55,758 bases of DNA from Pseudomonadota bacterium (GTDB lineage: Bacteria > Pseudomonadota > Gammaproteobacteria > Burkholderiales > Thiobacillaceae): assembly GCA_030684775.1 (NCBI GenBank), contig JAUXXW010000138.1, positions 1 to 55,758 on the forward strand, given 5' to 3'. The notes beneath the pieces are model-generated. The model worked only from the letters and a program-made list of their open reading frames with translations. It had not been told where the DNA came from and made no database searches. Shown here piece after piece: positions 7,957-55,429 of the stretch. Numbering within the stretch: the stretch's first letter is position 1; each line of letters opens with the position of its first letter. The translations under genes were made by a program, and so were the position numbers.

Positions 7957-9327
7957 TTATGCCGTGCGCGAGTAGCGCGGCTGGTCCTGGTTGGCTTGTT
8001 TCAGGTAGCCGTCGAAGCACATGGCGATGTTGCGCAGGAACAGGCGGCCGAGGTCGCTGACGACGATGCGCGTGGGTTCCAGGTTGACCAGTCCGTCGTC
8101 GACCAGGGGCGGCAGGTCGGTCAAACCGTCCGCGAAATAACTGTCGAAGTCGATGTTCCAGGCGGTGGCGAAGCTGGCCTTGTCCAGTTCCAGGTCGCAC
8201 ATGATGCGGGTGATGGCGTCGCGGCGGATCTGGTCGTCGCGCGTCAGTTTCAGGCCGCGCTCCACCGCCAGTCCGCCCTTGCCGATCCTCTCCTGATACT
8301 TCTTCAGGTTTTTCTCGTTCTGCATGTAGCAGTTGGGCGTCTGGCTGATGCTGGAGGCGCCGAAGGCGTAGATGTCGCAATCCTTGTGCGTGGTGTAGCC
8401 CTGGAAGTTGCGCCACAGGGTCTTGCTTGCCTGCGCCTTGATCATCTCGTCTTCGGGACGGGCGTAGTGGTCCATGCCGATATTGTCGTAGCCGGCCGCA
8501 CCGAGGCGCTCGTGGATGAGTTGTTGCAGGTCGAGGCGGGTTGCGAAGCTGGGCAGGTCGCTCTCATTGATCAGCTTCTGGTGCTTCTTCATCCACGGCA
8601 CATGGGCGTAGGCGAAGATGGCGAAGCGGTCCGGCGCCCACGGCACCACCTTGTCCAGGGTGTGCGCGAAGCTTTCCAGGGTCTGGTGCGGCAGGCCGAC
8701 GATCAGATCCATGTTGATGCTGGAAAAGCCCAGTTCACGCGCCCAGCCGTAGACGGTCTTGATCAGTTCTTCCGACTGCACCCGGTTGACTGACTTCTGC
8801 ACTTGCTCGTTCAGATCCTGCACGCCGATGGAGAGGCGGTTGAAACCGGATTCGCGCAGGGCGACCAGATGCTCGCGGGTCAGTTCGCGCGGGTCGGCCT
8901 CGCAGCCCATCTCGGCGTCCGGCGCGATGCTGAAGCGGCTGCGCAGCATGTCCATCAGGCGGCGGATGTCATCGGGCTTGAGGTAGGTCGGCGTGCCGCC
9001 ACCCCAGTGCAACTGCTTCACCTGCCGGCGCGGGTCGGTGAGTTTCGCGACCCGGTCCATTTCCTGTTCCAGGAAACCCAGGTAGTGGCTGGCCTTGCTG
9101 TAGTCACCGGTGGCGACCATGTTGCAGCCGCAGTAATAACAAAGCGTGTCGCAGAACGGGATGTGCGCATACAGCGAGAGGCCGCGCGCCGGGTCTTGCG
9201 AGGTCGTGATTTCTTCGATCCAGTCGGCTTCGCTGAAGTCGGTATGGAAATAGGGTGCGGTGGGATACGAGGTATAGCGCGGCCCCGGTTTGCTGTATTT
9301 CTCGAGGAGGGCGGTGAACTGGGACAT
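7957..9327 (-). CDS. hemN: Oxygen-independent coproporphyrinogen III dehydrogenase
   Basis: 456 residues, the length of true HemN rather than the shorter HemW. The radical-SAM motif is C59-x3-C63-x2-C66-x-C68 (PFCDTLCYYCGCN), followed by HWGGGTPTYL and GCEADPRELT. It decarboxylates coproporphyrinogen III to protoporphyrinogen IX without oxygen, using a 4Fe-4S cluster and SAM. The ATG at 9325-9327 has an FNR/Anr-like palindrome centred about 79 bp upstream, fitting anaerobic induction. It is a single gene, divergent from the small-RNA candidate and the phosphomannomutase gene. Confidence 0.96.
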   Translation of the reverse strand: MSQFTALLEKYSKPGPRYTSYPTAPYFHTDFSEADWIEEITTSQDPARGLSLYAHIPFCDTLCYYCGCNMVATGDYSKASHYLGFLEQEMDRVAKLTDPRRQVKQLHWGGGTPTYLKPDDIRRLMDMLRSRFSIAPDAEMGCEADPRELTREHLVALRESGFNRLSIGVQDLNEQVQKSVNRVQSEELIKTVYGWARELGFSSINMDLIVGLPHQTLESFAHTLDKVVPWAPDRFAIFAYAHVPWMKKHQKLINESDLPSFATRLDLQQLIHERLGAAGYDNIGMDHYARPEDEMIKAQASKTLWRNFQGYTTHKDCDIYAFGASSISQTPNCYMQNEKNLKKYQERIGKGGLAVERGLKLTRDDQIRRDAITRIMCDLELDKASFATAWNIDFDSYFADGLTDLPPLVDDGLVNLEPTRIVVSDLGRLFLRNIAMCFDGYLKQANQDQPRYSRTA

Positions 9328-9412: not shown

Positions 9413-9562
9413 GCCGGATGCCGATGGCGGCCTGGCCCACTAAAAGGTAAAAAGATGAAACCCTGACGAAATCGTCAAAATGTCGACATACTCCGCGTAG
9501 TACAAATCTATCCAGAAGCAATAACTTATTGATATTTAAGGGCTGTATTTCATTCCAAATCA

Positions 9563-9576
9563 GGCACGGCCATTGC
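9563..9576 (+). promoter_or_regulatory. Sigma-54 (RpoN) promoter
   Basis: GGCACGGCCATTGC carries GG at 9563-9564 and GC at 9575-9576 with exactly 10 bases between, and matches the -24/-12 consensus TGGCACG-N4-TTGCW at all but the first position. Transcription would start near 9587. The AT-rich 9430-9560 region upstream could hold activator sites, but I cannot identify them. No CDS begins within 200 bp; the two terminators downstream imply a short RNA. Confidence 0.72.
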
Positions 9577-9586
9577 TTATATAAAA

Positions 9587-9676
9587 GCACTGGACGAGAG
9601 TTCAACCCAACCTCCCTGACCGCCGCAATGGCGGTTTTTCAAGCGGCATCGGTTCCCGATGCCGCTCTTTTTTTGT
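9587..9676 (+). ncRNA. Candidate sigma-54-dependent small RNA, about 90 nt
   Basis: Bounded upstream by the RpoN promoter and downstream by two hairpins: a 6-bp stem with pentaloop (9619-9635) followed by TTTT, then a perfect 10-bp stem (GCGGCATCGG 9643-9652 with CCGATGCCGC 9656-9665) followed by TCTTTTTTT. The 5' part before the first hairpin is apparently unstructured and contains CAACCCAACCTCCCTGA, in which CCTCCC could pair with Shine-Dalgarno sequences, a common layout for Hfq-type regulatory RNAs. It has no open frame. It precedes the phosphomannomutase gene, whose product feeds polysaccharide synthesis. Confidence 0.62.
9643..9674 (+). terminator. Rho-independent terminator of the small-RNA candidate
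   Basis: A perfect 10-bp GC-rich stem with a 3-nt loop, followed by a T-run (TCTTTTTTT, 9666-9674). A weaker hairpin with its own T-run sits directly before it at 9619-9639. Together they should insulate the downstream gene from the RpoN promoter. Confidence 0.85.
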
Positions 9677-9832
9677 GCGGCCGAAACGTACACGGCAGGG
9701 GCAGACTTCTGCCATGTGCATTTCCTCACCCCCTGGGAGAGGGGAGCTTGAAGCGACGCTAATTGCTCCGCTTGCTGGCGGGTGGGCCGGCAAATCAAAG
9801 ATAATCGCCCGGCTCTCACTGTCTGGACCGTC

Positions 9833-11209
9833 ATGGGCGGCATCTCCCCGGAAATCTTCAAGGCCTACGATATACGCGGCATCGTCGGCAAGACCTTGAC
9901 CCCCGAAATCGTCGAATTGATCGGTCGCGCCGTCGCCTCCGAGGCGCGCGCACGCGGCCTGCGCGACATCGTCATCGGCCGCGACGGGCGCCTCTCCGGC
10001 CCCGCGCTCAGCGCCGCCCTGGCCAAGGGTATTCAGGGTGGCGGCGGCAATGTCATCGACCTGGGGCAGGTTACGACGCCGATGGCCTATTTCGCCGCCT
10101 GCCATCTCGCTACGCGCTGTGCCGTCATGCTGACCGGCTCGCACAACCCGCCCGACTACAACGGCCTGAAGCTGGTGATTGCCGATGAAACGCTGTCCGG
10201 CGACGCCATCCAGGATTTACGCCGGCGCATCGAAGCCGACGACTTCAGCCGTGGTGAGGGCGGTTACCGGCAACATGACATCCGCGACGAGTACATCGCG
10301 CGCATCGTCGGCGACGTGAAACTTGCTCGCCCCATGAAGATCGTCCTCGATGCCGGCAACGGTGTGGCCGGCGCCTTTGCGCCCGCCCTGTTCGAGGCGC
10401 TCGGCTGCGAAGTGGAGGCCCTGTTCTGCGAGGTGGACGGCACTTTCCCCAACCATCATCCCGATCCCTCGGTGCCTGGGAACCTGGCCGATCTGATCGC
10501 CCGCCTGCGGCAAAGCGATGGCGAAATCGGCCTGGCCTTCGACGGCGATGGTGATCGCCTGGGCGTGGTGGCCAAGGATGGAACCATCATCTATCCGGAT
10601 CGCCAGCTCATGCTGTTTGCCGCCGATGTGCTGGCGCGCAATCCCGGCGCCCTGGTCATTTATGACGTGAAATCCACCCGCAATCTGCGCCCGTGGATTA
10701 CCGCGCACGGCGGCCAGTCGATGATCTGGAAGACCGGCCATTCGCTGATGAAGGCGAAAATGCGGGAAACCGGCGCCCCGTTGGCGGGTGAAATGAGTGG
10801 CCATATGTTCTTCAAGGAGCGCTGGTACGGTTTCGACGATGGCCTCTATGCCGGCGCCCGCCTGCTCGAAACCCTGTCGCGGCAGCCCGACCTGGACGCC
10901 ACCCTGCGCGGCCTGCCGGATAGCTTGAACACGCCGGAACTGCACATCCAGATGCGCGAAGGCGAGCCACACCGGGTAATCAATCAACTCAAGGAAAGTG
11001 CTCATTTCGACGGCGCGCGCGAGGTCATCACCCTGGATGGCTTGCGCGTGGAATACGACGACGGTTTCGGCCTGATGCGCGCCTCCAATACCACGCCGGT
11101 CATCACGCTGCGTTTCGAGGCCGACAACCTGGCTGCGCTGAAGCGCATCCAGGAACAATTCCGCCGCCTGATCAGCGTCGCGATGCCCGCCGCGCAACTT
11201 CCTTTTTAA
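9833..11209 (+). CDS. Phosphomannomutase/phosphoglucomutase (AlgC/ManB type)
   Basis: 458 residues, an alpha-D-phosphohexomutase. Seen: N-terminal FKAYDIRGIVG, the phosphoserine loop TGSHNPPDYNG, the Mg2+-binding FDGDGDRLGVV, the sugar-binding GEMSGHMFF and the C-terminal phosphate-binding RASNTTPVITLR. It interconverts 6-phospho and 1-phospho mannose or glucose, the entry to GDP-mannose and UDP-glucose precursors for surface glycans. ATG 9833 is chosen because homology starts within a few residues; the frame is open 51 bp further upstream. It precedes purE by 18 bp and lies 5' of the large polysaccharide locus, to which it probably contributes precursors. Confidence 0.95.
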   Translation: MGGISPEIFKAYDIRGIVGKTLTPEIVELIGRAVASEARARGLRDIVIGRDGRLSGPALSAALAKGIQGGGGNVIDLGQVTTPMAYFAACHLATRCAVMLTGSHNPPDYNGLKLVIADETLSGDAIQDLRRRIEADDFSRGEGGYRQHDIRDEYIARIVGDVKLARPMKIVLDAGNGVAGAFAPALFEALGCEVEALFCEVDGTFPNHHPDPSVPGNLADLIARLRQSDGEIGLAFDGDGDRLGVVAKDGTIIYPDRQLMLFAADVLARNPGALVIYDVKSTRNLRPWITAHGGQSMIWKTGHSLMKAKMRETGAPLAGEMSGHMFFKERWYGFDDGLYAGARLLETLSRQPDLDATLRGLPDSLNTPELHIQMREGEPHRVINQLKESAHFDGAREVITLDGLRVEYDDGFGLMRASNTTPVITLRFEADNLAALKRIQEQFRRLISVAMPAAQLPF

Positions 11210-19070: not shown

Positions 19071-20279
19071 ATGACTGACAGCCTGATTCAAGTGGAGGGA
19101 CTCTCGAAAAAGTTTTGCCGCAGCCTCAAGCGATCCTTATGGTATGGATTGCACGATATCGGAAGCGAATTACGTGGTGGACAGCGGAATAATACGAATG
19201 AATTGAGAGCGGAAGAATTCTGGTCAGTCAAAGACATCAGCTTTGAAGTCAATCGCGGTGATTGCCTCGCATTGATAGGCCCGAACGGGGCGGGTAAAAG
19301 CACGCTGCTGCGCATGTTGAATGGCCTGATCAAACCAGATCAAGGGCAAATCACCATGCGCGGAAGAATCAATGCCTTGATTGCTCTCGGTGCCGGATTC
19401 AACCCGGTGCTGACTGGTAAAGAAAACGTCTATGTCAATGGCTCGGTATTGGGATTTACAAAGAAAGAAATTGATGAGAAGTACGAGACGATCGTGGAGT
19501 TCTCCGAGTTGCGGGATTTCATGGATACCCCGGTTCGTAATTACAGCTCCGGCATGAATGTGCGTCTGGGTTTTGCTGTCGCTGCCCAGATGGAACCGGA
19601 TGTCTTGTTGCTTGACGAAGTGCTGGCGGTGGGTGATGCCGGCTTCCGGGCTAAATGTTTCAATACCATCATGGATATCATGCAGCATGCGGCCGTGATC
19701 TTCGTCTCCCATAGCATGCCGCAAATCGCTAGAGTCGCGAGCAAGGTACTGGTGATGGAGCATGGACGCTGCATACTTCAGACCAGCGATGTCGGAAAGG
19801 CCATGGAGACTTATTACTCCACATTCACCCAATGTGAAGCTCAACAGCAGATATCCGGCAACGGCAAGTCCACACCGCGCTGGATTCGCCTGGAGGATCT
19901 CTCGGGCAATCAGATCAACAAGGTAGCGTTCGCCGCGCCATTCAATGTCTCCTGCGGTTTAGCCATCGATCCCGGCATCAAAGAATACAGGGTACAGTTG
20001 GACATCCGCTCGCGCGAACAGCAACTGGTGCTCCAGTTTTCATCGGAGATGGATGGGGTGGCATTCAACAAGACCGGCGATGTCGTAGTGAAGGTGGGTA
20101 TCAACGCCATGCGCCTCAGCCCTGGACAATATGTCATGAATCTGTTCGTCGCCGACGCACAAACTCACGAGGTATTGCTTGCATTTCGCGAATGCCTGTC
20201 CTTTGAGGTCACAGGCAACATTGTCGGCTACGCGCCGGTAAGTCAATCGGGAGATTGGACCCTTGAACCAGCACGCTAA
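19071..20279 (+). CDS. wzt: Polysaccharide ABC transporter ATPase with C-terminal domain (Wzt type)
   Basis: 402 residues. The nucleotide-binding domain (1-250) has Walker A at 70-77 (GPNGAGKS), the signature NYSSGMNVRLGFAVAA and Walker B DVLLLDEVLAVGD. The C-terminal 130 residues (after about 265) form a beta-rich extension that in Wzt proteins recognises the chemically capped end of the finished chain. Its presence predicts export coupled to a terminal modification; the methyltransferase at 39084 is a candidate but the link is inferred. An 84-bp gap separates it from wzm. Confidence 0.93.
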   Translation: MTDSLIQVEGLSKKFCRSLKRSLWYGLHDIGSELRGGQRNNTNELRAEEFWSVKDISFEVNRGDCLALIGPNGAGKSTLLRMLNGLIKPDQGQITMRGRINALIALGAGFNPVLTGKENVYVNGSVLGFTKKEIDEKYETIVEFSELRDFMDTPVRNYSSGMNVRLGFAVAAQMEPDVLLLDEVLAVGDAGFRAKCFNTIMDIMQHAAVIFVSHSMPQIARVASKVLVMEHGRCILQTSDVGKAMETYYSTFTQCEAQQQISGNGKSTPRWIRLEDLSGNQINKVAFAAPFNVSCGLAIDPGIKEYRVQLDIRSREQQLVLQFSSEMDGVAFNKTGDVVVKVGINAMRLSPGQYVMNLFVADAQTHEVLLAFRECLSFEVTGNIVGYAPVSQSGDWTLEPAR

Positions 20280-20353
20280 GATTCTCGTCACGGGGGCTGA
20301 TGGATTCATCGGCTCGCATCTCGTCGAGACACACGTTAGCGAGGCACTTACCC
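20263..20353 (+). pseudogene. N-terminal fragment of a legB-like NAD-dependent dehydratase
   Basis: About 30 residues starting with the Rossmann glycine motif KILVTGADGFIGSHLVE, as in UDP-sugar 4,6-dehydratases of the legionaminic/bacillosamine pathway (LegB). The frame then runs into the inverted-repeat element at 20354. All catalytic residues are lost. The LegB assignment rests on the adjoining legC-like remnant and NeuD/NeuB genes; the fragment alone could be any extended SDR. It overlaps the end of wzt by 17 bp. Confidence 0.65.
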
Positions 20354-20520
20354 TAGCAGCCTGTCGGACTTTGGTCGTCGAAAGCGAAAAGCGACCCCGG
20401 GGAGGCCAGTTTTTGCCGGATTCGCCGCCTCATAGTCGAACTAAGGGGCAAGAAGCCGGCGAAAAATGGGCCGTCGCGGTTGATTTGCAGCCGACGATTC
20501 CAAAGTCCGACAGGCTGCTA
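20354..20520. mobile_element. MITE-like element with 21-bp perfect terminal inverted repeats
   Basis: A 167-bp non-coding element bounded by TAGCAGCCTGTCGGACTTTG (20354-20373, plus one G) and its exact complement at 20500-20520. It sits exactly where the legB-like fragment stops and the legC-like fragment starts. Both ends carry TA, consistent with a TA target duplication, although the palindrome makes this ambiguous. The termini recall IS1182-like ends, from memory only. Its core (20423-20488) is shared with the relic at 7723-7788. It encodes no transposase. Confidence 0.82.
20423..20488. repeat. 66-bp repeat, copy 2
   Basis: The core of the inverted-repeat element, nearly identical (about three mismatches by eye) to 7723-7788 in the same orientation. 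The shared part excludes both termini. Confidence 0.75.
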
Positions 20521-20976
20521 CGCGTGGATGCCATAAAAATACGCGACTATCTTTCCCACCACACAGAACAAGGCGTCGGCCTGTGCGTCAATCGTGTCAA
20601 CGTTGATATTATTCGAGCCTTGGTGCCCATGCATATCTTCGGCCATCCAGTGGACGTGAATGGCCTACCGGCCGTGGCACGAGACTTCAACCCTGCACTG
20701 ATCGAAGATGCGGCCGAGCTACAGCATTACAAAACAGCGTTCGCCACCGTAAACGGAATCAGGCTGGTATCAGAGTCCGAACAGAACGGTCAACGCGACG
20801 CCCTATTGCAAGCCACTATTAGCGCTGGTTTAATGACGCACACTGCCTGGGTAACGATGCACGAATTGACGCCGCTCAAGTATTGCCCAAACATGGATCT
20901 GGCAGGTGCTCAGTCACTCTCACATCAATTGCTCAATGTTCAAAGCAGTTCGGGTTTGGCACCCGTCGCCTTATGA
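20521..20976 (+). pseudogene. Fragment of a legC-like DegT/DnrJ aminotransferase
   Basis: The translation keeps recognisable pieces of a LegC-family PLP aminotransferase: ALVPMHIFGHPVDVNGLPAV with LIEDAAE, then directly the C-terminal stretch QRDALLQATISAGLMTHTAW and LAGAQSLSHQLLNV. Roughly 120 residues between them, including the PLP-binding lysine, are deleted, as is the whole N-terminus. The open frame is continuous from 20263 through the MITE, so an automated call may report one nonsense fusion protein. It overlaps the NeuD-like gene (ATGA at 20973). Confidence 0.75.
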
Positions 20977-21602
20977 GCAAACCCGGCGTGATCCTGATCG
21001 GTGCCGGTGGTCACGCCCATGCCTGTATCGATGTCATCGAGCAACACGCCCAATATCAGATAGTGGGGTTGGTTGGTATGCCATGTGAGATGCATAGCCA
21101 GCACCTCGGGTATACCGTGATCGCTACGGACGAAGACCTGCCGCTACTAGCCAAAGACTACCAATACGCAGTCATTGCTGTGGGCCAGATTCGGTCACCA
21201 GACAGCCGTATCCGCCTTTATCAGCAAGTCCTTCAGCTTGGCTTTAGCTTGCCAGACATAATCGCGCCAACCGCCCATGTCTCCTATCACGCAACCATTG
21301 GCGTAGGCACCATCGTGATGCACGGCGCTATCGTTAATGCCGGTGCCAAGGTGGGCAACAACTGCATCATCAATACGCGTACCCTGCTTGAGCACGACTC
21401 AACAGTCGAAGACCACTGTCATATCTCGACCGGCGCCATCCTAAATGGAGGTGTGCACATTGGAGCAGGCAGCTTTGTAGGCAGCGGCTGTGTAATTAAA
21501 GATGGTATTACGCTTGGGAGAGGCTGCCTTGTAGGAATGGGCCTGTGTGTGCGGCATAACCAGGCGGATCACACCCGATTTATAGGTCACGATATATCAT
21601 GA
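20973..21602 (+). CDS. NeuD/PglD-family sugar O/N-acyltransferase
   Basis: 209 residues. A Rossmann-like N-terminal part (GVILIGAGGHAHACIDVIEQ) is followed by left-handed beta-helix hexapeptide repeats (IGVGTIVMHGAIVNAGAKVG, TGAILNGGVHIGAGSFVG), with the catalytic histidine of the family probably in TLLEHDS. Such enzymes acetylate amino sugars or sialic acids (NeuD, PglD, LegH). ATG 20973 is preferred; the longer frame overlaps the aminotransferase remnant. Its stop overlaps the neuB start by ATGA, so the two are coupled. Confidence 0.9.
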   Translation: MSKPGVILIGAGGHAHACIDVIEQHAQYQIVGLVGMPCEMHSQHLGYTVIATDEDLPLLAKDYQYAVIAVGQIRSPDSRIRLYQQVLQLGFSLPDIIAPTAHVSYHATIGVGTIVMHGAIVNAGAKVGNNCIINTRTLLEHDSTVEDHCHISTGAILNGGVHIGAGSFVGSGCVIKDGITLGRGCLVGMGLCVRHNQADHTRFIGHDIS

Positions 21603-22606
21603 AAAATAAAACCCTAATCATCGCCGAAGCCGGCGTCAATCATAACGGCGACCTCGCTCTGGCCAAACAATTGATCGATATGGCCGCCAAAGCGGGAGCC
21701 GACCTCGTCAAATTCCAGACCTTCAACGCAACCCGCCAAGTCACGAGAACTGCTGTAAAGGCTGACTACCAGAGACAGACCACAAACAACAAAGAATCCC
21801 AGCAAGAAATGCTTCGCCGTCTGGAACTCACCGCTGAGATGCACAAGGAACTCATCGCGCACTGTGCGGCACGGAACATCGGCTTTTTCTCTACCGGTTT
21901 TGATATTGAGAGCGTCGATCTGCTGGTGAGCCTCGGCCAGGATCACTTCAAGATACCATCTGGCGAGATCACCAACCTGCCGTACCTGCGCCATATTGGC
22001 CGGCTCGGTCAGGCTGTTATCCTCTCTACCGGCATGGCGACGCTGGGCGAGATTGAATCGGCAATCGATGTGCTCGAGCAGGCTGGTACGCCGCGTGACA
22101 ATATCACGGTACTGCACTGCACCACTGAATACCCCACGCCCATGGGCGAAGTAAATCTGCGCGCAATGCAGAGCATTCAACGTGCCTTTGGCGTAAAAGT
22201 GGGCTATTCCGACCACACGCCCGGGATTGAGGTGGCGATTGCTGCTGTGGCCATGGGAGCTTCCGTCATTGAAAAGCACTTCACGCTAGATCGCAACCTG
22301 CCCGGACCCGACCACAAAGCCAGCCTTGAGCCAGAAGATCTTATTGCTATGGTCGCAGCAATTCGCAACATTGAAATCGCGTTAGGCGATGGTATCAAAC
22401 GCCTTACTCAAAGCGAAGTCAGAAACAAACCAGTGATGCGTAAATCGTTAGTGGCTAGCCAAACAATTAAAGCGGGTGAAATCTTCAGCACGAAGAACAT
22501 AACAACAAAGCGGCCCGGAACGGGCATCTCGCCAATGCGCTGGGATGATGTCATTGGTCGCACAGCGACTCGTGATTTTGCGGAAGAGGCGTTGATTGAT
22601 CTATGA
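21599..22606 (+). CDS. neuB: N-acetylneuraminate/legionaminate synthase family protein (NeuB)
   Basis: 335 residues. The TIM-barrel NeuB domain (about 1-270: IIAEAGVNHNGDLALAKQLI, DLVKFQTF, FKIPSGEITNLPYLR, GYSDHTPG) is followed by the C-terminal SAF antifreeze-like domain (from about 280: MRKSLVASQTIKAGEIFS). It condenses phosphoenolpyruvate with a six-carbon N-acyl sugar to give a nine-carbon nonulosonic acid. I cannot tell NeuB, LegI and PseI apart by eye; the legB/legC remnants favour LegI. Both domains look intact. Confidence 0.93.
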   Translation: MKNKTLIIAEAGVNHNGDLALAKQLIDMAAKAGADLVKFQTFNATRQVTRTAVKADYQRQTTNNKESQQEMLRRLELTAEMHKELIAHCAARNIGFFSTGFDIESVDLLVSLGQDHFKIPSGEITNLPYLRHIGRLGQAVILSTGMATLGEIESAIDVLEQAGTPRDNITVLHCTTEYPTPMGEVNLRAMQSIQRAFGVKVGYSDHTPGIEVAIAAVAMGASVIEKHFTLDRNLPGPDHKASLEPEDLIAMVAAIRNIEIALGDGIKRLTQSEVRNKPVMRKSLVASQTIKAGEIFSTKNITTKRPGTGISPMRWDDVIGRTATRDFAEEALIDL

Positions 22607-22687
22607 CGTACGTAATTGTGGAGTCGGCATTGACCATTTAAATATTCAATATTACTGAAAATGTAATTCTTCTAGGATGGGGGAGAC

Positions 22688-23551
22688 GTGATATATATTT
22701 CGACAGGTGGTTTTCGTGGAAGAGTAGCAGGTGCCGTCTCCGAAGATCTATTAAGTGCAGGCATTAAATTTATAGAGCTTTCTGGAGGCGCATATTCAGA
22801 CACATTATTGAGCGATTTACAGGCATTAGCGCAAGACATACACTTCCAGATTCATAATTATTTCCCCCCTCCGGAAGATGCTTTTGTCTTAAATCTTGGT
22901 TCGTTAGACACCGTGATAGGTGAACGTAGTATTGCACATGTTGAACAAGCGCTCAAATGGTGCGTGGCACTAGGCGCAGATCGATATAGTTTTCATGCTG
23001 GTTTTTTACTTGACCCTAAAGTTGATGAGTTGGGACAGCGTATACCAAGCCGAAGTCTTTTTGACCGCGATGAATGTATAGAAGCCTTCGTCAGTCGTGT
23101 AACACGCTTGGCTGAAATAGCCGAAAGAGCAGGGGTTACCCTTATGGTTGAGAATAATGTACTTTCAGCAAAGAATGCCTATGAGTTCCCCGTCAATCCC
23201 TTGCTGATGTGCGATCCACAAGAATGCCAAAAGATCATGGGGTACTTACCTAGTAGCGTAAGGCTTCTAATAGATGTTGCGCACCTTAAGGTATCGGCAA
23301 ACTCCCTGTGCTTTGATTCGCTACAAATGTTTGATTTGTGTCACGAAAGAACCGCTGGTTATCATCTCAGTGATAATAATGGGCTAGAAGATTCGAACAA
23401 GCTTTTTGGCGAAGACGCATGGTTTTGGCCACACATTAGATCAGATGTTGATTATTACTCTGTAGAAGTGTACGACTGCACGCCAGATCAATTATTAAAG
23501 CAAGCAAACCTTGTTCGATCGAAGTTACAACTATTTAATCAGGCAATATGA
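22688..23551 (+). CDS. Sugar phosphate isomerase/epimerase-like TIM-barrel protein
   Basis: 287 residues with a xylose-isomerase-like TIM-barrel pattern: FIELSGGAYSD, HFQIHNYFPPPEDAFVLNLG, YSFHAGFLLD, TLMVENNVLS, LLIDVAHLKVSA and GYHLSDNNG, with H and E/D residues suited to a divalent metal site. The start is GTG 22688 behind GGGGGAG. Its ATGA-type overlap with the CBS-aminotransferase gene (23548) suggests the two act in the same pathway, presumably on a nonulosonic acid precursor. The gene is notably AT-rich compared with neuB. The reaction is unknown. Confidence 0.8.
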   Translation: MIYISTGGFRGRVAGAVSEDLLSAGIKFIELSGGAYSDTLLSDLQALAQDIHFQIHNYFPPPEDAFVLNLGSLDTVIGERSIAHVEQALKWCVALGADRYSFHAGFLLDPKVDELGQRIPSRSLFDRDECIEAFVSRVTRLAEIAERAGVTLMVENNVLSAKNAYEFPVNPLLMCDPQECQKIMGYLPSSVRLLIDVAHLKVSANSLCFDSLQMFDLCHERTAGYHLSDNNGLEDSNKLFGEDAWFWPHIRSDVDYYSVEVYDCTPDQLLKQANLVRSKLQLFNQAI

Positions 23552-25023
23552 TAGTCACTAATAGAATCACCCTAGAAAGCTTGCTAGTAAAGTTACCTGC
23601 AACGTTTCATGAAGCGCTAGAGGCCATTAACACTAATACCCTGGGTATTGTCTTTTTTGTAGGCAATGACCGTCAACTAATTGGCGTATTTACTGATGGT
23701 GATGCACGTCGTGCACTCTTAGCAGGGGCCGCCTTAAGCGACTTAATTACGGCTGACTCGTTCTATTTCAATAAATCACCTCATTACCTGCCGTTTGATT
23801 GTGATATTTCAGAAATATGGAGTCTTCTCGAACAGAACTTGCGTTGCATCCCTTTGCTGGATGCATCCCATCGTGTTGTGGATTTCTCAACTCGAGCACG
23901 AATTAGGCGATTTCCGGTGCTGGAGCCTGACATTGGACAACAAGAAATTTGCAATGTTCTTGAATGCGTTACTAGTGGCTGGATATCCTCCCAGGGCCGA
24001 TTCATCGGGGAATTCGAGAGGGCATTTAGTGACTATTTAGGTGGTGGGCACGCAATTGCAGTTGCAAATGGGACAGTCGCTTTACAGCTGGGATTGACGG
24101 CACTGGGTATTGGCCATGGTGATGAAGTTATTGTTCCTAACTTTACCTTTGGCGCCAGCATTAATGCCATTATTCATTCTGGTGCCATACCAGTACTTGC
24201 TGACGTTGATCTAGATACTTGGACTATTGATCTTGATGAGTTGCGTAAGTTGATTACACCGCAAACCAAGGCAATTATGCCAGTGCACATTTACGGACAA
24301 CCCGCACGAATTGATGAAATCAAGGAGATAGCGTCTGAAAAGGGCATCATTATTATTGAGGACTGCGCAGAGGCGCTTGGTGCCACGTATAAGAACAGGC
24401 GCGTTGGACTCGATGGTGATTGCACGTGCTTTAGTTTTTTTGCCAACAAGACTATCACCACTGGTGAAGGTGGAATGGTGGTATTTAAGGATGCTGGAAT
24501 GGCACAGCGAGCTCGAATCTTAAGGGATCATGGCATGAGCCCGCAGAAACGTTATTGGCACGATTATGCAGGCTTTAACTTTAGAATGACAAATATGCAG
24601 GCTGCAATTGGTGTTGCACAGATGGGTCGGATTGAGGAATTACTCAACCGAAAGAAATTGATATTTCAGGCATACGACAGCCTATTATCAGAGCATCAAG
24701 TTTTATCCCTGCCGCCTAAGAATAATTGGTCAGAAAACTCTTACTGGCTATACACGGTTATCTTAAACGGATATGAAGGCGATGTTCGTGACAAACTAAT
24801 AACGCAACTTGGGTATCGTGGTATTGACGCACGCCCCGGGTTTTATCCCATGCACCAGATGGCCCCCTACCATCAGTATGGTCATGGAGCATATCCAGTT
24901 TCCAGTTATCTTTCAGCAAACTCAATAAGCCTTCCGTCTTCACCTGGTTTGTCTGATGAAGAGATACATCACATAGTCGGAATATTCATTGATGAACTCT
25001 CGTCATTTACAAGTGAGATTTAA
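23548..25023 (+). CDS. CBS-domain pair fused to DegT/DnrJ/EryC1 aminotransferase
   Basis: 491 residues. Residues 1-125 form a CBS pair with LIGVFTDGDARRALLAG, the form seen in the nucleotidyltransferase PtmE and in KpsF-like proteins of nonulosonic acid pathways. From about 135 on is a complete type I PLP sugar aminotransferase: VANGTVALQLGLTALG, DEVIVPNFTFGASINAI, IIEDCAEALGA, PLP-lysine K301 in FFANKTITTGEGG, and RMTNMQAAIG. It should transaminate a keto-sugar nucleotide, perhaps gated by a nucleotide bound to the CBS part. It may replace the broken legC-like gene upstream. Confidence 0.88.
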   Translation: MIVTNRITLESLLVKLPATFHEALEAINTNTLGIVFFVGNDRQLIGVFTDGDARRALLAGAALSDLITADSFYFNKSPHYLPFDCDISEIWSLLEQNLRCIPLLDASHRVVDFSTRARIRRFPVLEPDIGQQEICNVLECVTSGWISSQGRFIGEFERAFSDYLGGGHAIAVANGTVALQLGLTALGIGHGDEVIVPNFTFGASINAIIHSGAIPVLADVDLDTWTIDLDELRKLITPQTKAIMPVHIYGQPARIDEIKEIASEKGIIIIEDCAEALGATYKNRRVGLDGDCTCFSFFANKTITTGEGGMVVFKDAGMAQRARILRDHGMSPQKRYWHDYAGFNFRMTNMQAAIGVAQMGRIEELLNRKKLIFQAYDSLLSEHQVLSLPPKNNWSENSYWLYTVILNGYEGDVRDKLITQLGYRGIDARPGFYPMHQMAPYHQYGHGAYPVSSYLSANSISLPSSPGLSDEEIHHIVGIFIDELSSFTSEI

Positions 25024-25073
25024 GTTCTGGCGCAATTTATATTGTGAGTAACCAGATATAAGAGAGGAACAAA

Positions 25074-26011
25074 TGCGCAACAGAATCAAGTCCGCCAATG
25101 CCACTCCACTGCCACTACCACAAACCCTCATAGAACAGGGATACGCGAGTTGCTTCAAAGATTGGGCGCAATAAGAAATGAAAACGTAGAGGTGTTTTCA
25201 ATTGGCACTAGAGACAGAAAAGATCTACCCGTATATAGAGATAAAATCAGTAAAGTTATATTTAATGATGAGTATTATGTAGGCGACGAGGAATGTCATA
25301 GCGGAAAATATAGGCATAAGCCCGAGTCTCCTATAAGGACTATTGGCCGAGATCATGAGGATCTAGCTGATATCGAGAGAAGATATTAATAAATACGTCA
25401 GTTTATTGTTGCTAAGTCTATTTGTGATTTTGGATGTGGGGCTGGGAATTCTTTGAGCCTGTCAGCGCCACTGGCAAAGAATGTTTGCGGTATAGAGCTT
25501 CAAAAGTATTTCTCTGATGCTTTAAATAATGAAGGAATTAGTTGCTACCAGATCGTTGAGCAACTAAGTAATGGACAAGACTCGATATTATTTCACTGCC
25601 TTGAGCATCTACCAGACCCCATAAAGCCGCTAAAAGATTTACACAAAACACTCAAGCAAGAGGGCAAAGGAAAAATTGTTATTGCAGCGCCTCACGCTCG
25701 AGTTTTATTATTTGGGTAAGTTAAGGAATAAGTCATTTGTTGACTTCACACTTTGGTCGCAACACTTGGTGCTTCACACACGTGAATCTCTTACTCTTAT
25801 GTTGACTGATGCAGGATTTCAAATAATTAGCATAGAAGGTGTACAAAGGTATGGCATTGCGAATCACCTTTATTGGCTAACGGAAGGCAAGCCTGGCGGG
25901 CACAAAGAAATACTATCTATTATTGTAACAGTCAATCTTATTCATTCTTATTCTGATGCATTATCAAGACTTGATGCCAACGATACAATAGTTGCCATAG
26001 CAACTACCTGA
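25074..26011 (+). pseudogene. Frameshifted class I SAM-dependent methyltransferase
   Basis: Three consecutive frames give one protein-like reading: LLQRLGAIRNENVEVFSIGT (25150-25389), SICDFGCGAGNSLSLSAPLA with the SAM motif I and FHCLEHLPDPIKPLKDLHK (to about 25719), then LGKLRNKSFVDFTLWSQHLV to the end (to 26011). The joins fall near 25140-25150, 25389 and 25705, and at least three indels are needed. It resembles the methyltransferases that modify sugars in O-antigen loci. It is strongly AT-rich like its neighbours, and inactive unless the breaks are sequencing errors. Confidence 0.8.
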
Positions 26012-26053
26012 TGTCAAAACCAACATAATTATTAACTTACGTTTACTAACACT

Positions 26054-26779
26054 ATGAGAGTTCTAGCTTTAATTCTTGCCCGTGGTGGCTCAAAACGCCT
26101 TCCAGGGAAGAATATCCGTACTCTTGGCGGCAAACCTCTAATAGTCTGGTCCATTGACGCGGCAAGAGACATACCGGAGATTTGCGATATTCTGGTTTCT
26201 ACAGACGACCCCGCGATTGCAGGAGTTTGCAGAGAGGCCGGCACCCTAGTGCCTTGGTTGCGCCCCGATGAATTTGCGACCGATACCGCAACTTCGATCG
26301 ATGCCTGCCTACATGCGCTGGATTGGTACGAGTCACATAAGGGCAAGGTCGATGGCTTACTGTTATTGCAACCCACATCGCCCTTCCGCTCTCGGCAAAC
26401 AATCATTACCGGTATCACTCTTTTCCGAGAGCATGGAGGTAGGCCAGTAGTCGCCTTCTCTCCCGCCGAATCCCACCCGATGTGGTGCTTCAAGATCGAA
26501 GGCGACTGCCTTCGTCCATTCATGGACGCGGGTGGGTTGTCCATGCGGTCGCAGGATTTACCCCCGGCGTATGTGGTCAATGGTGCTTTATATTTGTCCA
26601 CTCCATCTGATCTAAGGGCTCATGGTAGTTTTTTTTCCGATGACATGTTGCCATTGGTAATTAACTCACGGCGGCAATCGCTGGATATTGACACGGAGTG
26701 GGATTGGCTCCTCGCCGAAAGTATTCACTCAAGAACCGCAACGATTGACGATGAATCTGCTGCTGCAACAGCTACATGA
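26054..26779 (+). CDS. neuA: Acylneuraminate (CMP-nonulosonate) cytidylyltransferase
   Basis: 241 residues of the NeuA/LegF/PseF family: ALILARGGSKRLPGKNIRTL (CTP-binding loop), ILVSTDDPAIA, LLLLQPTSPFRS, and a C-terminal DIDTEWDW metal site. It activates a nonulosonic acid as its CMP derivative, the donor for the following transferase. It overlaps the gene at 26776 by ATGA. Together with neuB it shows that the cluster can still activate such an acid if a six-carbon substrate is supplied. Confidence 0.93.
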   Translation: MRVLALILARGGSKRLPGKNIRTLGGKPLIVWSIDAARDIPEICDILVSTDDPAIAGVCREAGTLVPWLRPDEFATDTATSIDACLHALDWYESHKGKVDGLLLLQPTSPFRSRQTIITGITLFREHGGRPVVAFSPAESHPMWCFKIEGDCLRPFMDAGGLSMRSQDLPPAYVVNGALYLSTPSDLRAHGSFFSDDMLPLVINSRRQSLDIDTEWDWLLAESIHSRTATIDDESAAATAT

Positions 26780-46839: not shown

Positions 46840-47581
46840 GCGAGCCGATCTCTCTGTACCCCGCCACCGGCGAGTTTATTTCCGCCCCCATGGCTTCCTG
46901 CTTTTCTACCTTATCCCGCGGCCGCGACGGTTCCGCAACAGGTGCCGGAACAGTTGCTTCACTATCAACCACAGGTTGCTCAACCCGAGCTACCGGTGTG
47001 GGTGCCGATGGCGCGGGGTAGGGCATATTCCCGCCCAACTCCTTGTACATTCGCTTTAGAGCCTTGCTTTCAGGATTGTTTTGCAAACCCTTGGTTATTA
47101 TTTCCAGCCCTTTTTTCTTGTCGTTTTTCTTGATGAAGAATTCGGCCATACCGACATAGGCCTTAACCAGACTCTGATCGCTGTTTATTGCCTTTAGATA
47201 TTCTGCTGCGGCAAGAGCATCCTGCCCTTGTAATGAATAAATTATTCCTTTCTGAAGATATATCTCCGGGAGCAATATAAAATCCGGAGTCACACGGCTA
47301 ATAACATAGTTGCAGCCACCCAAGGCCTCGCCAAGGTTGTATTTAAAATCTGCCTTGCTTTTCACCATTGAACGATATGCCCGGTGGGTAAAGCGAACAC
47401 AGTCACAGTAGTGGTGAACATGCGACCAATTCTGGTCTCCATGGACCTGTCGGTTCCATATTGTAGCCACACACATTTTTGTTTCTTCTGGGGTAGCCGT
47501 GAAATCAGCCATTGCCAGTGGATGCAATGACAAAGCCATAAGGCCAACCAATATGGCTCGAAAAAGAACTACGGTATTCAT
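46742..47581 (-). CDS. Secreted TPR-containing protein of unknown function
   Basis: 279 residues. An N-terminal signal peptide (MNTVVLFRAILVGLMALSLH, cut near AMADF) is followed by a Cys- and His-rich segment (KMCVATIW, HVHHYCDCVRF, GGCNYVI), then at least two tetratricopeptide repeats (about 115-200: QKGIIYSLQGQDALAAAEYL, VKAYVGMAEFFIKKNDKKKG) and a Pro-rich tail. It is probably periplasmic and may scaffold assembly or export factors. I do not recognise the family. ATG 47579-47581 has GGGAG upstream; the longer frame overlaps the GT4 gene. The gene is AT-richer than both neighbours. Confidence 0.75.
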   Translation of the reverse strand: MNTVVLFRAILVGLMALSLHPLAMADFTATPEETKMCVATIWNRQVHGDQNWSHVHHYCDCVRFTHRAYRSMVKSKADFKYNLGEALGGCNYVISRVTPDFILLPEIYLQKGIIYSLQGQDALAAAEYLKAINSDQSLVKAYVGMAEFFIKKNDKKKGLEIITKGLQNNPESKALKRMYKELGGNMPYPAPSAPTPVARVEQPVVDSEATVPAPVAEPSRPRDKVEKQEAMGAEINSPVAGYREIGSPTNPWCRFCTDTPAAPPASSPSTPGVVPRDWK

Positions 47582-54169: not shown

Positions 54170-55429
54170 CTACCGCTCCTTGCCTTTCCCCGACGCGACG
54201 GGTTCAACAACCTTCAGCACCCCATCCCGATAGCGAACTTCGATTCTCGCCCCGACCTCGGGTAATGCCTGGAACAATCCTCGTGCATGCGCAACCTGCT
54301 TGCCCTGGCCGACATGCTGTATCACCCGATCCTCAAGCACGGCAACCACCGTTCCGGAGTGGGTGCCCGTGGATACAAGCGGAATATTCTCGGCAAGTGG
54401 TTGTGCAGTCTCCCGTCCTTCACCTCGTCCCCGTGTCTTGGCAAAGGTCGCTTCAATTGCCTGCCTGGCTTCACCCAGCGTTTTCGCGAATCCGTCCACG
54501 TCAGGAGCACGGTATCGTCTGCGGGCCTCCGGCAGCGACTCCAGTACCGCCAACGCCTCTTCCCGGAAGCCTTCGGTCTTCACCAACAGGCCGGCGATGA
54601 AGTCCCTGGAACGCCTGGGATCAATCCCTATCGACTTACCGAAATCCACCAGCAGCTTCCCGAGATTCGTAGGCGTCTCGCCGGATGCCGAGTACGGCAG
54701 ATAACCATCAAGCCGTTCATCCCCGCCGATCCCGGCGAACGGCAGGGCGGACAAGAGATCGTGTTTGTTCCGTCCACCTCGGTAAGCCCGCATCGGGGCC
54801 GGGTCGAACACAGGGGACAGCCCGCATGAACCGGCGCCCCCCAGGATCGCCATGTTTTCCAGGTGCAAGTCACCGTTGCCGGTCAGGAACGACATGACGA
54901 AACGGCGATACCAATCATCCCGCATGCCGGCGGGCAGGTTCAGCACGGTGAAGACCTTTGCCGCGTCTTCCATCGTTCCATCGGTCGTGCCGAAATACTT
55001 GGCGGGGCTGCCGGTCTTGAGCAGGCTGAAGAAGCTCTCCAGAGGCACCGGCACGCCATCCTTCCGGTCGAATCGCTCTACTGCAAGCAACGTCACCGCC
55101 TCGCCGTGATGTTCCAGTGTTTTCAGCCAGGTCTTCGGTACCGGGAATCCGGCCTCGCGGTGGTAGCGGTAGCTCAGTTCCTCCAAGGCGAGAAGCCCTG
55201 GGTAGTTGTCCCGCTCCAGCTTCACGATGGCCGGCACGGCGTTTGCGCCGAACAGGCCACCATTCCACTGTCCATCCTCGGTAATGGGGATGGGCACGGC
55301 CAACTTGGGCATGAAGCCGGATACCCCCGGTGTCGGGCCTACCGTCTCCAACACGTACTCCTGTTCCACCTCGTTGGCGGTTTCCGCCACAAACCGGCTG
55401 AACGCGAACCAGAGTGACGAACCGGACAA
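54170..55429 (-). CDS. HipA-family kinase, frameshifted near its N-terminus
   Basis: 419 residues of HipA-like Ser/Thr kinase. The core is complete by eye: AIVKLERDNYPGLLALEELS (ATP lysine), LLAVERFDRKDG, the catalytic loop NGDLHLENMAIL and SPVFDPAPMRAY (metal-binding D). HipA toxins phosphorylate tRNA-charging factors such as GltX. The listed start is a TTG inside open frame. The frame continues upstream (about GLTVEPRGAGHLDVFENDEA), and a better start, GTG at 55558-55560 (MSNEIKELSD), is separated from it by one missing base near 55530. No HipB-type gene adjoins it; the upstream flank is an insertion-sequence remnant. It is either a recent pseudogene or carries a sequencing error. Confidence 0.75.
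   Translation of the reverse strand: MSGSSLWFAFSRFVAETANEVEQEYVLETVGPTPGVSGFMPKLAVPIPITEDGQWNGGLFGANAVPAIVKLERDNYPGLLALEELSYRYHREAGFPVPKTWLKTLEHHGEAVTLLAVERFDRKDGVPVPLESFFSLLKTGSPAKYFGTTDGTMEDAAKVFTVLNLPAGMRDDWYRRFVMSFLTGNGDLHLENMAILGGAGSCGLSPVFDPAPMRAYRGGRNKHDLLSALPFAGIGGDERLDGYLPYSASGETPTNLGKLLVDFGKSIGIDPRRSRDFIAGLLVKTEGFREEALAVLESLPEARRRYRAPDVDGFAKTLGEARQAIEATFAKTRGRGEGRETAQPLAENIPLVSTGTHSGTVVAVLEDRVIQHVGQGKQVAHARGLFQALPEVGARIEVRYRDGVLKVVEPVASGKGKER

Follow-up and report, generated by a model that had tools for sequence, protein, structure and literature searches.

The RNA locus and its conservation

The element of interest lies in an intergenic region of the window, a stretch of DNA of 55,758 nucleotides. 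On one side is the heme-biosynthesis gene hemN (7957-9327, minus strand), which encodes oxygen-independent coproporphyrinogen III oxidase (TIGR00538, 575 bits against a cut-off of 325) and is the divergent, constant neighbor of the RNA gene. On the other is a phosphomannomutase/phosphoglucomutase-like gene, here called pmm (9833-11209, plus strand; the best NCBIfam model is PgmG, matched at 474 bits where its cut-off is 600). From the sequence, we infer a transcript of about 88 nt (about 9587-9674) that would begin at the usual distance from the -12 element of a sigma-54-type site and end at an intrinsic terminator.

The predicted fold of this RNA contains, in order, a 5' hairpin, unpaired ACCUCCCU, another hairpin (hairpin 1), and a strong terminator. 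The region 9586-9676 folded to -36.7 kcal/mol (z = -4.61), and none of 200 shuffled sequences was equally stable. All elements are on the plus strand. The presumed 5' extension of the sigma-54 transcript (9587-9609) has a predicted 5-bp hairpin (9591-9595 with 9600-9604). It is followed by the putative seed, ACCUCCCUG (9610-9618), which is complementary to Shine-Dalgarno-type sequences and is unpaired in the predicted fold except for its last G. Hairpin 1 (GACCGCC-GCAAU-GGCGGUU, 9618-9636) precedes a run of U's that would be, by inference, an Hfq-type feature. The terminator (9642-9674) has an 11-bp stem, a 3-nt loop and a T-run at 9668-9674, and is supported by a terminator scan and by covariation. 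The initial annotation had described two consecutive terminators. The later of these was borne out; however, it is the only one that the plus-strand scan recognized (9642-9666), and the earlier (9618-9636) is a conserved hairpin followed by U's. The pair is therefore better read as one hairpin and one terminator.

The conserved sRNA core is 65 nt long (9610-9674). A covariance model of the core, R1, was built from 30 orthologues and scored 97.6 bits (E = 1.2e-23) at the window locus, a score that is not independent because the window sequence is itself included in the model. The initial annotation had also held that no coding sequence follows the promoter, and we agree. The RNA as delimited above contains two ATGs and no GTG or TTG, and neither ATG is kept in all 30 orthologues: the one at 9628, in hairpin 1, is ACG in 5 (L021 and L026-L029), and the one at 9659, in the terminator arm, has no counterpart in 6. 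On these grounds we rejected a small-protein reading.

We found the RNA in most genomes of the window's family, betaproteobacteria of the Thiobacillaceae/Hydrogenophilales type. A BLASTN search with 9540-9700 against 61 genomes, mostly metagenome-assembled, matched 32, all inside this family of 37 genomes and spread over nine genera; none of the 24 genomes of other families matched (0/24). By their record titles, the relatives are betaproteobacterial and not gammaproteobacterial. Our detailed comparison covered 30 loci, and L121 and L122 bring the total to 32 genomes. hemN adjoins the RNA at all 30 compared loci (30/30), and it lies in the same locus as the RNA in 32/32 genomes. pmm is the downstream neighbor at 26/30 loci; at L008, L015, L019 and L021 it was not found, other reading frames lie downstream, and the RNA is kept. 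In five of the 37 family genomes hemN is present, but a search of ~1.5 kb around it found no RNA.

Searches with R1 gave a similar distribution. The covariance search of related genomes that had been proposed as a check matched 35 of the 61, of which 32 are among the 37 of the family and 3 are weak matches outside it (E = 8.6e-7 to 8.1e-5; 3/24 other-family genomes). Among 250 genomes drawn from the order, five matched at E ≤ 1e-5, all five in the window's family under strict filters. An exact-pattern scan of named genomes returned 32 stretches, every one titled as metagenome-assembled, whose carriers include Thiobacillaceae, Hydrogenophilales, Thiobacillus, Hydrogenophilus, Tepidiphilus, Gallionellaceae and unnamed betaproteobacteria.

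We found that the core is both conserved in sequence and compensated in structure. Mean column identity over the 65 nt was 92% (30 orthologues). ACCUCCCUGAC is invariant save one change at one locus, and 8 of the 9 seed columns (9610-9618) are invariant, the remaining column being altered in one orthologue. The CCTCCC that had been noted as unpaired on the 5' side is invariant save a single C-to-T change (1/30, L015). Among 21 distinct core sequences, 8 of 18 pairs had double-sided changes, with 13 double-sided cells compared to 2.4 in shuffles (observed value reached by 0/500), and the covariation signal was gone in a control with a slid partner. In the terminator stem, 7 of 11 pairs had double-sided changes and 98.3% of cells were paired. 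Hairpin 1 was paired in 100% of cells across the 21 sequences; six of its seven pairs never vary, and the seventh is swapped, with G-C for C-G, in a single sequence. Because R1 and the structure both derive from the same 30 sequences, their own scores are not independent, and the support comes from the slid-partner and shuffle controls and from synteny.

Support for the 5' hairpin appears weaker than that for the core. At the nine closest loci (7 distinct sequences), all 35 cells pair and 4 are double-sided. The numbers of paired cells and of double-sided cells and the covariation score were each reached by 2/500 shuffles. Two pairs had double-sided changes, a number reached by 134/500 shuffles, and the number of further pair types was reached by 450/500.

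Promoter elements and a candidate activator

A sigma-54 -24/-12 promoter sequence, GGCACGGCCATTGC, lies upstream of the core (9563-9576, plus strand). When the 90 nt preceding the core were shuffled, 0 of 500 versions scored as well. The initial annotation had called this a near-consensus GG-N10-GC promoter. That description stood, with AGGCACGGCCATTGC (9562-9576) differing from TGGCACGNNNNTTGC at one position; window-wide, however, the match is at chance level. A search of the whole 55.8-kb window with TGGCACGNNNNTTGCW at one mismatch or fewer gave one match where 0.80 were expected, and 56 of 100 shuffles equaled it. The promoter match alone is thus no rarer than chance, and the case for it rests on comparison. 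CGGCACGGCGTTTGC (55232-55246, plus strand) is the sole other site in the window within one mismatch of TGGCACGNNNNTTGC.

We scored a sigma-54 site at an orthologous locus as at least 8 of 10 positions in the 90 nt upstream of the core. Such a site was present at 20/32 loci, with the score at each reached by between 0 and 16 shuffles out of 500. Measured from its first position, the site is 49 to 86 nt away from the core; the 5' extension therefore differs among loci on a core that hardly changes. Of the remaining 12 loci, 7 have a TATAAT-like hexamer separated from the core by 6-7 nt, in a search that allowed gaps of 4-9 nt; some of these seven are close relatives and do not represent seven independent events. 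The other five had no -10-like hexamer by the same test. None of the sigma-54 loci has such a hexamer (0/20), and its background frequency, at random positions of these loci, was 3.5%.

This distribution suggests that in some lineages the RNA starts at the ACCUCCC of the core under a sigma-70 promoter, and that in others a sigma-54 promoter and a 5' extension are placed on the same core. It also suggests that the RNA is an autonomous transcription unit, served by promoter elements near the core. The promoters look as if they had been exchanged around a fixed RNA, and the family would offer a clean natural promoter exchange, with a near-invariant RNA and, by lineage, a sigma-54 site or a sigma-70-like -10 element. 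In one relative (L010:1476-1566), the 5' extension from the sigma-54 promoter is predicted to fold onto the CCUCCCUG seed. By covering the seed, the extension might make the sigma-54 form less active or hold it inactive until processing.

Elements further upstream are consistent with the ordinary layout of an enhancer-dependent promoter. The candidate activator-binding region (9464-9488), ~75-100 bp upstream of the -24 element, consists of a 14-bp perfect palindrome, TGACGAAATCGTCA (9464-9477, arms TGACGA and TCGTCA), and then TGTCGACA (9481-9488). Nine close orthologues keep part of the block. Across the genome, the 22-nt pattern that combines both elements is matched exactly only once, at the window site itself, and five further times at 3 mismatches, one of these being its own reverse strand. 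Between the palindrome and the promoter is an IHF-like site, TAACTTATTGATA (9522-9534), which reads as the reverse of the IHF consensus, WATCAANNNNTTR. Five of the 9 close orthologues have the IHF-like site exactly and the remaining 4 have it with one base changed, at a constant distance; among 1142 80-nt tiles from 30 loci, these loci included, 5 contain the exact pattern. Part of the upstream conservation may serve hemN, because transcription of hemN also sets out from this region and the palindrome overlaps a terminator-like hairpin that is on the minus strand and faces hemN (9481-9460). The IHF-like site could also serve hemN instead. RpoN was found in 36/37 family genomes, and the genome in which it is missing is 58% complete.

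We considered whether the enhancer-binding protein PrsR drives the sRNA, which would place the RNA in the PrsK/PrsR regulon (PEP-CTERM, exopolysaccharide). This would refine the explanation that we prefer, a trans-acting sRNA with an enhancer-activated sigma-54 promoter, and is not an alternative to it; we hold the refinement only tentatively and think it more doubtful than probable. PrsR scored over its cut-off in 28/37 family genomes. Among the 32 genomes with the sRNA, the sigma-54 site was present in 20/24 with PrsR and 0/8 without it, and all 8 genomes lacking PrsR have RpoN. Under random assignment, 0/8 has a chance of 4.7e-5, a figure that ignores ancestry. However, the 8 genomes form ~3 groups in a hemN tree, so that shared ancestry partly explains the association, and four genomes have PrsR and no sigma-54 site (G001, G011, G013 and G014).

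The binding-site evidence is also divided. For PEP-CTERM genes, Haft et al. 2006 (PMC1569441) describe a motif of 17 nt that precedes the sigma-54 site and has TTTACA as its end. The window's genome has 14 PEP-CTERM matches. For 13 of them the preceding 1.5 kb contains a sigma-54-like site, and the box TGTCGGNNTTNTTTACA is present in 11 of the 13 upstream regions, with small departures allowed and one copy a base shorter. We take the box to be probably a sharp version of the published motif. It lies 67-113 bp before the sigma-54 site of these 11 PEP-CTERM genes (among L166-L179). The full box is absent upstream of the window sRNA, where the best score was 4.0 bits (reached by 36/200 shuffles) compared to 24.7-30.4 bits for the ten sites of the matrix; the eleventh genuine box, one base shorter, scores 8.7 bits. 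None of the 20 sRNA loci reached 24.7-30.4 bits. Against this, a half-site, TGTCGACATT (the left half of the box, minus strand), lies 83 bp upstream of the -24 element, matched by 0/200 shuffles; at just 5/20 loci, though, was the half-site score reached by 2/200 shuffles or fewer. L005, L021 and L025 have partial matches to the full matrix (10.6-15.1 bits, reached by ≤2/200 shuffles), but the best match at L005 adjoins the promoter and is not at enhancer distance. Moreover, the genome encodes other response-regulator activators of the same type. PrsR is thus the leading but unproven candidate for the activator.

Two further loci of the window's genome touch on this system. A PEP-CTERM gene without the box (G000:C143:33239, L173) has upstream ATCGACATACTGCGC, which resembles TGTCGACATACTCCGCG upstream of the sRNA. 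prsT, prsR and prsK are found together at G000:C18:14000-21500 (L123), where the two parts of the prsK profile fall in separate, overlapping frames, which reflects either a gene that is truly split or a mistake in the assembly.

A broader version of the PrsR proposal, which we regard as unlikely, would make the sRNA the post-transcriptional arm of a PrsK/PrsR-RpoN matrix program, with the nearly unchanged RNA rewired to ordinary sigma-70 promoters where PrsR was lost and phages of the genus carrying seed mimics. Switching on PEP-CTERM proteins and exopolysaccharide would bring with it, through the same system, an anti-Shine-Dalgarno RNA that turns competing functions down. If the PrsR link were true, the PEP-CTERM/exopolysaccharide system would gain a small RNA; among the literature matches listed on its regulation, including the available portions of PMC9850573 and PMC1569441, there was no such small RNA.

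Copies of the core, rival readings and mode of action

Copies of the core elsewhere in the genome keep the seed. R1 matched the window's genome at 7 places at E ≤ 0.001, the window included. Of the 6 other copies, ACCTCCCTG is kept in 4 and CTCCCTG in 5; over 19 paralogous copies, the seed is exact in 14 and CTCCCTG is present in 18. Three of the 6 adjoin phage-type or mobile-type genes (C12, C31 and C181), with a DNA methylase beside the C31 copy and DUF6362 beside that on C181. The sequences upstream of the copies differ from that of the window, and a loose GG-N10-GC without the TTGC half precedes 2/6. Taken together, these features point to a seed module that has been duplicated or is mobile, and they speak for action of the seed in trans.

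The copy at G000:C12:7879-7940 (L102) is a double-hairpin module with CCTCCCTG, flanked by Rha and BRO-N on one side and an M15 peptidase on the other, as if it were a prophage-carried mimic of the host sRNA. Six copies, L103, L104 and L105 (G000:C182, C31 and C181) and L109, L110 and L111 (G022), have in common a conserved upstream stretch around GTAGGATT..ATCGTCGACCAG, perhaps a common promoter. The neighbors of four of these six include a DNA methylase (two copies), DUF6362 and a PD-(D/E)XK nuclease. A search of a phage collection gave a 22-nt match in 2 records (E = 0.04), which we took as chance, and a plasmid collection gave no match.

We weighed two other readings of the locus. The RNA might be an attenuator or leader of pmm, in which a transcript from the sigma-54 promoter would normally end at the terminator and would continue past it in response to a signal. 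The position of pmm, on the same strand as the RNA and following it at 26/30 loci, is what such a leader would have. However, the RNA is kept at the 4/30 loci where pmm was not found, the distance from the start of the core to the pmm match differs among loci, and the copies elsewhere in the genome keep the layout. In addition, the terminator stem varies with compensation and hairpin 1 is nearly fixed, so that no conserved antiterminator pairing is visible. We rejected the leader reading, which we judge improbable, on the persistence of the RNA without pmm and the lack of an antiterminator pattern. With these four loci, and with hemN as the constant neighbor, the control link to the phosphomannomutase and glycan locus that the initial annotation had suggested is not supported.

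It is more improbable still that a chance terminator and a chance sigma-54-like site happen to lie next to hemN with no RNA function. By itself the promoter match does occur at chance frequency, but sequence, fold, compensatory changes and synteny are kept across 32 genomes and nine genera, and promoter elements are found near the core at orthologous loci; by this conservation the chance reading appears already contradicted. Comparison across genomes confirmed the overall observation from which the analysis began, a sigma-54-type site with a short structured RNA locus. The predicted short, independent sRNA, with its sigma-54 promoter, CCUCCC seed and terminator, is well supported by conservation, covariation and synteny.

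Our results are most consistent with a trans-acting sRNA made from an enhancer-activated sigma-54 promoter, whose CCUCCCU would pair with a set of mRNAs and block their translation, and we consider this the likely function. An enhancer-binding protein bound near 9464-9488, helped by DNA bending at the IHF-like site (9522-9534), would activate sigma-54 polymerase at 9563-9576. Transcription would start near 9587 and stop at the terminator ending at 9674, and the 65-nt core would perhaps arise from the ~88-nt RNA by processing. With Hfq probably presenting it, the unpaired CCUCCCU would then pair with purine-rich ribosome-binding sites and block translation of the mRNA set. Several predicted features agree with such a role. 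Hfq was found in 37/37 family genomes, and the RNA has the hairpin with U's and the terminator poly-U of an Hfq-type sRNA. At 20/32 loci the -24/-12 site is placed for a non-coding transcript, as in a sigma-54-dependent sRNA.

Evidence on targets is thin. The pattern TCAGGGAGG-N3-12-ATG had 5 matches at 4 places genome-wide, compared to 0 for the reversed control; a long reading frame (273 aa) follows one of the 4 places, and the contig concerned carries a mobile-looking copy as well. Within the window, 4 start regions are partially complementary to the seed, and three of these were dropped as poor starts, judged by eye. The fourth is at 47581 on the minus strand, directly behind a glycosyltransferase gene, and its ATG is preceded by AAAGGGAGA, a plausible ribosome-binding site. 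With six pairs and -11.2 kcal/mol, its predicted duplex is weaker than those of the other three, and its product is weakly TPR-like, below the Pfam cut-off. We regard 47581 as a weak target candidate. It is also all that bears on the glycan link suggested earlier: besides 47581, the glycan genes of the window (neuB and other nonulosonic-acid genes) showed no tie to the RNA. The nonulosonic (sialic-type) acid genes lie at 20263-26779 (plus strand) and include a NeuD-type acetyltransferase and NeuB, both over their cut-offs, and a LegC/PseC-like aminotransferase and a PseF-like cytidylyltransferase, both below theirs.

Relation to known small RNAs

The initial annotation had not recognized the sequence as any known RNA, and a search of the whole window at the Rfam gathering thresholds likewise gave 0 matches. 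A permissive Rfam run on 9540-9720 gave 15 matches at E ≤ 10. Among small RNAs, Qrr, CrcZ, NrsZ and GlmY are sigma-54-dependent, with RpoN and an activator driving a non-coding regulator. Their promoter logic is the same as that proposed here; none of them is among the Rfam matches of the window RNA. The anti-hemB family (RF02837) shares the letters CCUCCCUG and a terminator with the window RNA (26.2 bits, compared to a gathering score of 49.5), but its motif sits in the loop of an extra hairpin.

The best Rfam match was ncS54 (RF02871, Burkholderia sRNA 54), at 30.7 bits (E = 1.5e-5). The likeness consists of a CU-rich 5' end, a hairpin and a terminator. The score is below the gathering score of 43, as are those of the relatives (25.4-35.1 bits in the 10 of 13 relatives tested for which ncS54 is listed); hairpin 1 of the window RNA is shorter than that of ncS54, and the available part of the ncS54 source mentions no sigma-54 promoter. 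RF02278 (Betaproteobacteria toxic small RNA, gathering score 50 bits) did not match the window RNA at E ≤ 10. Another locus of the genome, on G000:C195, does encode an RF02278 member (64.9 bits), which differs in sequence.

The literature matches listed on small RNAs in Thiobacillus and Hydrogenophilales contained none on this RNA. It would be an sRNA family without a match at the Rfam gathering scores, present in 32 of 37 genomes of one family, and the family that carries it is known mostly from metagenomes.

The layout is that of a known class. According to the available portions of two reports, the double-hairpin RNAs (RF02278; ncS03, ncS05, ncS27 and ncS62) and Bordetella S17 are ~57-92 nt long with two hairpins, have CU-rich stretches complementary to ribosome-binding sites, and occur in several copies per Burkholderia genome (PMC5688073, PMC11722255). 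As far as the first of these describes them, the Burkholderia RNAs were seen by RNA-seq and some also by Northern blot (PMC5688073). S17 is reported to depend on Hfq; many of the genes that it affects have matches to it at or close to their ribosome-binding sites, and it represses directly the one gene that was tested (PMC11722255). The promoter of S17 is reported there as sigma-A, with processing by RNase E, whereas the site at the window RNA is sigma-54-type. The window RNA shares the CU-rich double-hairpin layout with the Burkholderia RNAs and S17. It probably works like this class, at scores below the threshold of each family named, and the reading that fits these comparisons best is a trans-acting sRNA of the type, CU-rich and with a double hairpin, found in Burkholderia and Bordetella.
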